From Halichondria panicea (Eukaryota; Porifera; Demospongiae; Suberitida; Halichondriidae), in contig NC_087380.1 in the NCBI RefSeq assembly GCF_963675165.1, positions 5,588,071 to 5,652,070 on the forward strand: a stretch of DNA of 64,000 nucleotides, read 5' to 3'. Positions 1 through 4,377 of the stretch are shown one piece after another. Positions within the stretch are counted from its first letter, which is position 1. The number at the start of each line of letters is the position of its first letter. The position numbers were made by a program, and so were the translations under genes. Under the pieces are notes generated by a model. That model had not been told where the DNA came from. It ran no database searches and was given only the letters and a program-made list of their open reading frames with translations.

Positions 1-348
1 GCTACTAATAGCTTTGTTTTATACACATGACGATCAAATTTGCAAACTCAAAGAGTGGGTAATGATCGACCATGATTTTTGTTAAAAACGATTGATGCCA
101 AAAGCTCAAGTCTAAAATTAATGGCTGCTATCAGCAGCCTTGCAGCTCTCTTCTCACTCATGCAGCTACCAATAGCTAGCGTTCTAGTGCAGAGCTAACT
201 ACTAAGTAGAGTAGCAACACTCGGTAAACAAGTTTGGCAACGTGCTCTTCTGAAAAGGCTGCAATGGCATTCCAAGTAAGCAAAACTCGAGAACGAAGCA
301 TTATTTTGCAAATCCACGAATTAAATCCAAGAAAACATGACTAGAAGC

Positions 349-526
349 CACACACACACACACACACACACACACACACACACACACACACACACACACA
401 CACACACACACACACACACACACACACACACACACACACACACACACACACACACACACACACACACACACACACACACACACACACACACACACACACA
501 CACACACACACACACACACACACACT
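349..526. repeat. (CA)n microsatellite
   Basis: A pure CA dinucleotide run of about 88 units. It produces spurious TH/VC-repeat reading frames in several frames and codes for nothing. It sits inside the left inverted arm; the matching place in the right arm (about 3750-3770) has only a short TG run. Confidence 0.98.
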
Positions 527-1195
527 ACCATATACCTCGCTTGCGCATGCGCACCGAGGCATAATAATTATGTGTCTGTCAGACAATCAATCAGTTTGTA
601 CTAGGCCACCTTATTATTGAAGCCACTGTTAGCCTGTCCAAAACTACAGCTAGGTTTCACTAACGTGGGAAGTAATACAAAAGGGTTTGTTTTGGTTTTA
701 GGGTATGGATATAGAGTTTTACCCTTATAGTTTTCAAACTGATACACCAGTCGGACCGATATTTCGTGTGTTTATACCTGTCTCTATGGTAGCCCATACT
801 AGCCACAGGGGATCCAATGTCCACGCTGCACTGCAGGGTCTTGTCATAAAATGACCATACCTGAGGACGATGAAAAAAGACACATACGGCATGAATAGGC
901 GTGGTTGTTGAGAATAAAGAGATTCAAAAAAATCGATTAAGAAACAAAGTAGAACAGAACAATATTCATGAAGGATTTGTGGTTACCAAGGTAGCTTCAT
1001 GGGTTAGTTCTAGTTATTTACGGACAACATTAGCATGGATAGAATAGAAACAAGCAGTAATAATAAGACAACTAGCAACTTGAAAACAATTAAGTAATTC
1101 GAAGTCAAAGATTCCAAGAGCAACCAATACAAGTTCTGGCAGAGAGGCTCATACTGAAAGACAGCTACTGAAAGGAAGCCCCCAAGTGCTGGTCC

Positions 1196-3397
1196 ATCCT
1201 ATCAATGTGGGACAAGGAGATGCAATACTACTGGAGATACAGAGTCAAAATGGTAAGTGATTAGAAGTGGCGTTAAAAAAAAAAAAAAAAAAACTGTTCT
1301 GACGTCAAAGCATCACAGACATGACATTACCAAGTATTTGTTGTTCCAGGCCAGAGTGAGAAACACCTTACGGATGGTGGCCAGGGACAAAGAACACAGA
1401 ACACACAATACTACCAGAATCTCCAAGACACTCTCAGGGCTCGTGGATGCTTTGAAGAGAACCAAATGTGGTAGTAGGGTAAAAGATTGAACTCGTAAAC
1501 AAGTTACAATGGACTCCATTATCATCACACACCCCAATCTAGATCATTACGGTGGCATTAACTGACTGCTACAAGACTTCACTATCACGGCTCCCATTAC
1601 AACAACTCTGGCAAGCTGTTTGAAAGTTGGGTATTCTGGTGGTCCATAAGACACGCAATTAGGTGAGTGTTCCTGTCGGGTGAAAGAGATCAAGTTAGGC
1701 ATTGGTTCCCGTTAACTGGAGAGGGTGAGAATGGTAGACGACACACAAACATTAAAACACTGCCAATAGGTTTGTCAATAGAAATAGACACGAACAAAGA
1801 AGAAGGATTTAAACCAAAACAGCTAAATAAAACAAGTATTCTGACAACTGTAAGGATACCGGAGAGCAAGTAGGATTACGATGTGGTGTTGAGCGGAGAC
1901 TCATACGGTTATGTCATCGATGAGAAACTAGGCATAAAGGATAAATCGGTAGGAGTATTCCAAGTGCCTCATCATGGAAGCAAATATAATCTCGATCACC
2001 TCAAATCCAAACCATCAACAGCTGAGTTCAGAAATGTTTACTCGAGCTTCCATGCACATATCAGTCACGGCGATCACAGAGGCTAAAATCATCCACATAG
2101 TGAAATTATCACAGGCATTCTCTCTGCTGCTCCAGAAGAAAAGACGTTGTAAGATAGTAGTCGCGACAACATGGTTTAAAGAATCTAAAATTGACAAAAC
2201 GAACATTAGCAACTGGAGGGGGACTATGTTGATATTTTCTACTTCAAGCAAGGCACTCCATACGTCACCCTGGATCCTAACGATGAGAAACTGCCTGAGG
2301 GCTTACAGCTGTTTGTCAAAAAGGTGCGTGTTACAAACAGAAATTAATAGAAATGGTAAGACTACACAGCTAGGAAATTATAATTTATACAGGTGCCAGC
2401 TCCAATTAAAGAGTTTAAAAGACAAATTTAGAGAAAAGAATTTGCAGAGGAGGGAGGTTAGTCGTGATGGAAACAGCTTCTTCAATGCCGTCAGTGGAGC
2501 ACTAACAAACAAGAACACACCCATCCAGCTGAGAGAGAGGCTTGTTGAACACCTAATGGGATTGCAAGGTTTATACTATCCAAGATCAGGAATGACTACA
2601 ATGGAGGAATATTATGAGATCGTAAATAATTATTTATTGGCCTGGATGGTCACTTCTCGTCTGATATTGAAAAGATTTTGCCCGAGGCAATGGCACGGAC
2701 ACTAAATATTCGAATACAAGTTATCATTGCAAATCCTGAACAAGACGATAAGTTTTATGGTATCGAATCCACCTAGACTGTTATTCAGCTAATACATGAT
2801 GACACAGACAGTGGTCACTATGACTACGCCCTGCCAGCCACGGCACAAGTGGTTACAGAGCAGATTCCTGAGCAGAGATAAGAAAACCCACTATTAGCAA
2901 ACGGAGGAGCTGCAGACGCCTCCAGTTCCCAAATGACAGGTGAAACAAATTATTGTGAAGTAAGAAATATATATATATATAACAGTTTCTTTTATTACGA
3001 TTTACAATTTACCCTTACAGTGCTAATCAGAAGAAAAACAGCCCACCCAAAGCCGTATGTCGCATCTGTAATCAACTGGCAAGTCCGAAGAATATATGGT
3101 ACCAATGTACAAACACTAAATGTCCAATAAAAATAAACGCCAGTTGTGAAGAGAAGACAAGTCGTCTTTTATAAGAAATGCATCATCGTCATCTTTTATA
3201 AGAAATGCATCATCGTCATCTTTTATAAGAAATGCGATTATTGCCGGACTTGCAAAGAATGCAACGGAATAATGGGAACAGTACATGCTTCGTGTCATAT
3301 TTGTGGGGGTGCTGGCCACGTCCCTTGTATTAGAAGAGTGCCCGAACAAACAAGAGATGGATACACATGTAGGATATGTAGAGAACAAAGCTTGTAG
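1196..3397 (+). pseudogene. Decayed gene: metallo-beta-lactamase-like, OTU-like and PHD-like segments
   Basis: Three conserved blocks lie in order on the plus strand. First is a ComEC/Rec2-like metallo-beta-lactamase fold: VHPINVGQGDAILLE at 1191-1240, ITHPNLDHYGGI near 1523-1560 (metal-binding HxxxDH type), then VVLSGDS and FQVPHHGSKYN at about 1884-1985. Second is an OTU peptidase-like segment: DGNSFFNAVSGAL at about 2467, and IQLIHDDTDSGHYDYALP near 2775-2835. Third is a cysteine-rich finger region, CRICNQL near 3063 and CHICGGAGHVPC/CRICREQ near 3295-3390, ending at TAG 3397. Some breaks look like introns (GTAAGT at 1254), but in-frame stops after the HxxxDH motif and inside the OTU segment, plus frame changes near 2645, indicate decay. 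The OTU nucleophile position reads Ser (DGNS), not Cys. Function is unknown; the domain calls rest on motifs only. Confidence 0.6.
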
Positions 3398-4377
3398 TGC
3401 AATAGGCAGAAAATTATATGCATGTACCGTGTATAAAACGTCGCACATTGTCAATCGCTATCGATGTAGAGTACAGTGTGAATAAAGAATTACTTTCAGT
3501 ATGGACACAATAATATGAATGAAGGAAATACAGCAATAGCTGGTGTGTTTAATAATAATGTATACGTGATATATACTGTAGTGCTAGAAATAATTATATG
3601 AGAGCTTAAATTGTGCTATTGCTTCGATTAAACACAGCGATTTTAATGGGGATTGTACAGGCCTCGAATAAAGGACTATAGTTGTGCGACACAAATTTAT
3701 GCGATAATTATGCCTCGGTGTGCATGCGCAAGCGAGGTATACGGTGGTGTGTCTGTGTGTGTGTGTGTGTAGATTGCTACAGTTGCTCAAGGATCAATGA
3801 AGTGCAAGTAAGAGTTTCTATATAGCCATGGATTTTAATTTGTGGATTTGTAAAATAATGCTTCGTTCTTGAGTTATGCCTAAGTTTTGCTTACTTGGAA
3901 TGCCATTGCAGCCTTTTCAGAAAAGTGCGTAGAAAAACTTGTCCATGGAGTGTTGCTACTCTACTTAGTAGTTAGCTGTGCACTACAACGCTAGCTATTG
4001 GTAGCTGCAAGAGTGAGAAGAGAGTTGCAAGGCTCTGCTGATGCAATTTTAGACTTGGACTTTTGGCATCTATCCTTTTTAACAATAATCATTGTCGATC
4101 ATTACCCAGTCTTTGAGTTTCTGGATTCTGCCTGCATTGCAATACAACAATGGTCATCATGCTAATAGGCTAGTAGCTTTGTTATGTAGCTTGACACCTC
4201 CACCGAGGCATCAGCACTCGCGGTGCTTTCATTATGATAGGCACTCGCATAAATAGCATTAGCTTGTATCACGCATACATTTCAAGCATTTAACGGTACA
4301 TTATTAATAAAACTATTTACGATGCCTTATTGATGAATTGTGCTAGATAAATGTATAACTGATACATACATACATAC

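Follow-up and report, generated by a model that had tools for sequence, protein, structure and literature searches.

The stretch considered here, positions 36..4122 of a 64,000-nucleotide window of the Halichondria panicea genome (C4:5588071-5652070, where C4 is NC_087380.1, in an assembly of 131 Mb and 39 contigs), is almost certainly a pseudogene that belongs to a clustered, intron-bearing host gene family and has an independent copy of a dispersed repeat on either side. Positions without a prefix are window positions. The assembly is that of an animal, with Wnt genes (10 exon-level matches at three places) and three nuclear-receptor DNA-binding domains, a receptor number low enough to fit a sponge. 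A first-pass annotation had taken the stretch for a single unclassified element in which metallo-beta-lactamase (MBL), OTU and PHD segments are enclosed by long inverted arms. This is not borne out: the arms belong to the dispersed repeat, and the segments to the gene family. As a mobile element the finding is ordinary, and the part worth following is instead the domain of the working relatives, which is akin to bacterial antiviral enzymes.

The motif blocks described by the annotation are all found on the plus strand and in the order given there, HPNLDH, PHHGSKYN, DGNSFF, HYDYALP and a Cys-rich segment, in different reading frames. An upstream region common to the open paralogs (604..998, plus strand, of which 604-844 and 942-998 match L029 and L034) is followed by an exon that encodes the first MBL strand (VLVHPINVGQGDAILLE; 1093..1257, plus strand) and by a GT...AG intron. 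The decayed MBL exon (1349..2323, plus strand) carries HPNLDH at 1530-1547 and PHHGSKYN at 1967-1990, and is interrupted by frameshifts and by stops at 1488, 1563, 1647, 1871 and 2084. The OTU exon is also decayed (2393..2940, plus strand; DGNSFF at 2466-2483, HYDYALP at 2816-2836); it has a serine at the place of the catalytic cysteine, and stops at 2774 and 2879. The third decayed exon (3010..3394, plus strand) encodes a Cys-rich zinc finger, PHD/C1-like and below Pfam cut-offs. When aligned with L029, the window copy shows 22 insertions or deletions over the aligned stretch, of which eight break the reading frame inside the coding sequence or at its edge, and seven codon-aligned stops.

The pseudogene has a duplicate, L033, at C4:5.455 Mb. 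Its identity to the window copy is 92-96%, in pieces that start before the left arm and reach window position 6608, and it lacks the equivalents of 1325-1453 and 3209-5412. Four of the seven stops and ten insertions or deletions are common to both copies, so the gene had been broken already when it was duplicated, together with the left repeat, between the two places. A gene with DSL/laminin-EGF repeats at 5704-6528 (minus strand; PF01414, E-value 4e-27) has been duplicated along with the pseudogene in L033, and this fits a segmental copy. A short tandem repeat, by eye nearly three copies of a unit of about 27 bp, is found at 3174-3238 within the zinc-finger exon, bordering the part that L033 lacks.

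The combination of MBL, OTU and Cys-rich finger in one unit, as first proposed, is confirmed by open copies elsewhere in the genome and by a structure model of the OTU part. Protein searches of the genome gave 15 MBL copies: 13 lie at C4:5.335-5.590 Mb, one is on C13 and a distant one is at C4:3902176-3903105. L029 and L034 are 99% alike, and each has the first-MBL-strand exon, an open MBL-OTU frame of 557 amino acids and an open zinc-finger exon. The MBL exon is open in nine copies (L029, L034, L032, L038, L030, L036, L043, L040 and the distant L056). L045, which consists of two matched pieces in an open frame of 456 amino acids, may be a tenth. Eight MBL exons make up the alignment used here (A1); L045 and L056 lie outside it, as do the broken copies L033, L035, the plus-strand copy of L037, C4:5389 and the window copy. 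A small tree separates L029, L034, L032 and L038 from L030, L036, L043 and L040, with L056 far off; the supports, 90/94 and 94/92, do not reach the strong mark of the program.

The inverted arms themselves are present as described. Four stretches of 49-152 bp with 90-93% complementarity link 44-568 with 3704-4120 (44-119 with 4045-4120, 136-287 with 3883-4034, 277-325 with 3834-3882, and 502-568 with 3704-3770). Each arm is an independent copy of one dispersed repeat of about 0.53 kb. The left copy is found on the minus strand at 1..571, starting at about C4:5588007, 64 bp outside the window, and a (CA)n run has expanded within it (about 351-525); the right copy is inverted relative to it (3709..4234, plus strand). 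Searching the genome for the right arm yielded 2626 candidates at first look, and all 40 that were scored matched. Seven outside copies (L002-L008), which span up to about 3704-4240 of the window, hold one repeat copy each, with no inverted partner within 1.5 kb on either side, a distance too short to test a 4-kb element. Pairing was surveyed in about 201 kb of C4, counting arm copies with at least 180 aligned bases and partners within 6 kb. Six of the 11 copies have no opposite-strand copy within that reach, two of these having one flank examined for less than 3 kb.

The other five do have an inverted partner, which speaks for terminal inverted repeats and against independent repeat copies. 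They comprise the window pair, one further copy a short way upstream, and a second inverted pair at C4:5521778-5526303 (L036:3771-8304) with its copies 3.8 kb apart. This second pair surrounds only the OTU exon of L036 and leaves the MBL exon outside, while in L030 an arm copy lies between the MBL and OTU exons. Inverted pairs are to be expected because the repeat is dense in the genome: 2626 randomly placed copies in 131 Mb would give roughly 108 pairs this close, a rough figure as the candidates are unconfirmed. The paired copies weaken the argument against an element that was drawn from solitary arms, and the odds of the readings are unmoved by them.

Homology of the MBL domain to the ComEC/LmuA/Avs1a type is clear over the active-site half (hhalign against the bacterial relatives: probability 99.2, E-value 1.1e-19, 96 columns). 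Among the nine open copies the metal-site motif is HPDxDH in seven and HPNLDH in two, and GDS and HHGS are present in all nine. LmuA is the best PADLOC family for eight of eight MBL proteins, and the NCBIfam profile Avs1a matches L043 with an E-value of 4.4e-15, far under its curated cut-off. A lysine-rich tandem peptide is inserted in the MBL loop of two copies (L038:5570-6634 and L032:2346-3425) and is absent from the other rows of A1. The OTU fold is recovered for the OTU part in a predicted model, which strengthens the assignment of this domain. The catalytic cysteine is replaced by serine (GNS) in all seven readable MBL-OTU copies; a copy separate from these, near C4:5570594-5571001, has DGNC. 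At L037:7083-7955 (minus strand, which also carries the L043 MBL copy) a zinc-finger array is followed by an OTU-like domain that keeps the catalytic cysteine (DGNC).

The open paralogs are most likely effectors of the nuclease type, in which an MBL site of the ComEC/LmuA/Avs1a kind would hydrolyse phosphodiester bonds. The OTU domain, with serine for cysteine, would bind or sense ubiquitin rather than cut it, and the zinc fingers would provide targeting, so that the OTU and zinc-finger parts control the use of the phosphodiester-cutting effector. A role in cell-autonomous defence is a guess, made because of the kinship with bacterial antiphage MBLs, the clustered and fast-evolving copies and the several pseudogenes; nuclease activity, ubiquitin sensing and defence taken together are a tentative proposal, more doubtful than probable. 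Pairwise ratios of nonsynonymous to synonymous change (dN/dS, Nei-Gojobori) are 0.18-0.76 for MBL pairs, mostly 0.50-0.68 for OTU pairs, with 1.37 between the near relatives L030 and L036, which differ by few changes, and 0.25-0.66 among zinc-finger pairs, several dS values being near saturation. They fit a family that may be evolving fast under mild constraint.

Several observations weigh against this proposal. Relaxed selection would fit the dN/dS values nearly as well. The LmuA profile also matches in nine of 14 control prokaryote genomes, and its match is therefore no proof of defence. HPNLDH replaces HPDxDH in the clade of the window copy. The architecture differs between copies: L038 combines an MBL with zinc fingers and gives no OTU hit, and in the minus-strand copy L043/L037 the zinc fingers precede an OTU that has DGNC. 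In the bacterial enzymes the loop separating the MBL motifs contains gating inserts; its length is 131-189 residues in the host proteins, against 185-236 for the bacterial set and 127 for ComEC. The predicted structure of the MBL-OTU stretch is weak (mean pLDDT 59.9, with low-confidence stretches at 110-117 and 126-134), and a Foldseek search with it gave no match at an E-value of 0.001 or better.

It is possible, though again doubtful, that the MBL proteins serve another task, such as the building of skeleton as for hexaxilin, or phosphoester cleavage in metabolism. Hexaxilin, a glass-sponge silica protein, is related to ComEC, and PMC10772126 reports hexaxilin-like genes from demosponges as well, so MBLs of this type can do other work in sponges; the phosphorylcholine esterase Pce is also among the structural matches tied with ComEC. 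However, the fusion to OTU and zinc fingers suggests an intracellular protein, and OTU does not occur in the main text of the hexaxilin paper (PMC10772126).

Bacterial relatives were obtained from plasmids by a protein search, which gave 19 records, and the contexts were read for ten, the other nine being Agrobacterium records. In seven of the ten a serine protease gene is directly beside the MBL gene, as an S8 protease upstream (H1, H2, H3, H4, H12 and H13) or a trypsin-like protease downstream (H5), and patatin, TIR, FRG or SIR2 genes lie close to some of these loci. No protease is in view beside the MBL remnant, which has a stop, in H6 and H17, and none is shown for the unannotated H19, where the upstream reading frame has no Pfam match. 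At L066:1801-5366 a plasmid MBL gene overlaps the end of an 846-residue open reading frame without a Pfam match, the tail of which looks CHAT-like by eye. Scanning of genome contigs confirmed one relative among 59 candidate stretches, of the PDC-M48B kind in Bosea, with no protease seen beside the MBL and no match in a profile search of the Bosea genome. Plasmids gave no match to the distant member L056. Kinship with viruses was rejected, as on viral contigs the MBL and OTU profiles yielded no confirmed relative (0 of 56 and 0 of 272 candidate stretches); phage records gave two weak matches (best E-value 2e-3).

In bacteria, MBL nucleases that proteases activate were reported in 2025 (PMC12799240). 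Tuck and colleagues show there that these MBLs are pro-nucleases and cut DNA once a partner protease cleaves blocking loops; OTU does not occur in the main text. The homology to these MBLs and their protease neighbours, together with the long lysine-rich loops of L032 and L038, would suit MBL-OTU proteins that are gated in the same manner and become active once the loop separating the MBL motifs is cut. Most host loops are, however, barely longer than that of ComEC, and no active protease domain is present in the MBL-OTU copies, although separate partner genes were not searched for. With short loops and an OTU domain without its nucleophile, the bacterial gating scheme is improbable for the host proteins. 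A broader conjecture, itself unlikely if somewhat less so, is that they are fast-evolving, clustered animal immune nucleases descended from bacterial protease-linked antiphage MBLs, in which a fused, catalytically altered OTU domain together with zinc fingers has taken the place of the bacterial protease partner, putting the cutting of DNA under the control of ubiquitin signalling. If this is true, the clustered animal MBL-OTU proteins would be a further immune enzyme that animals share with bacteria, one with a coupling to ubiquitin built in. The family can be tested by standard biochemistry and transcriptomes. No MBL-OTU-PHD fusion is described in the titles and openings of abstracts among the matches listed, which for one search were 12 of 964; preprints and most subscription papers fall outside that scope, so it may have been published.

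A transposon ancestry is still less probable. The family might have been tamed by the host from an old OTU- and PHD-bearing transposon that captured an MBL gene, and now be a normal gene. Both OTU and PHD are reported in Ginger1 transposons (PMC2836005), and OTU in some Helitron proteins. Against this, no integrase- or helicase-type match was found in the pieces scanned, and Ginger1 proteins, as far as the sections of their description used here go, have an integrase-like part at the N-terminus and not an MBL. Transposase-type Pfam families were likewise absent from the seven pieces and ten further reading frames scanned between the arms, where shorter or very decayed remains could escape. A mobile element with terminal inverted repeats of 0.4-0.5 kb that carries MBL, OTU and PHD as cargo and relies on its own or a foreign protein to move is rejected as highly improbable despite the two inverted pairs and the domains known from Ginger1, since no arms are found in the DNA examined around L029, L034 (9.5-9.9 kb) and L038, six of the 11 surveyed arm copies are unpaired, the homology of L033 runs past the left arm and its right arm is missing so that the ends of the copies do not coincide with the arms, and 13 of 15 MBL copies sit in one 255-kb cluster.

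Far from the pseudogene, at 60192-61890 (plus strand), two overlapping frames match DDE_Tnp_1_7 (E-values 3.3e-43 and 3.6e-17). They make up a frame-broken transposase of the piggyBac type.

The host pseudogene and its open relatives can be compared with several known systems. The Ginger1 DNA transposons resemble the stretch in that they can have terminal inverted repeats and an OTU or PHD domain, but they have an integrase-like transposase, of which none was found here, and the sections of the account used here mention no MBL (PMC2836005). Hexaxilin and the hexaxilin-like proteins share with the family a ComEC-related MBL in sponges with several paralogs; as described, hexaxilin differs in being associated with silica and in having conserved cysteines in glass sponges, with OTU unmentioned in the main text (PMC10772126). 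The OTU deubiquitinases, such as OTUD3, Otu2 and viral OTUs, have a cysteine where the readable host copies have serine. Unlike ComEC/Rec2, whose MBL domain is represented by the solved chain 9ic4, the host copies show no membrane channel and are joined to OTU and zinc-finger exons. The antiphage MBL pro-nucleases (HamM, the MBLs of the AVAST and Lamassu systems, and CanC) have a homologous MBL with HxDxDH, GD and HHGS motifs and, like the host proteins, a protease-type domain in partnership, whereas the host gene bears introns, an OTU domain without the catalytic cysteine, zinc fingers and shorter loops, as judged from the main text of PMC12799240.
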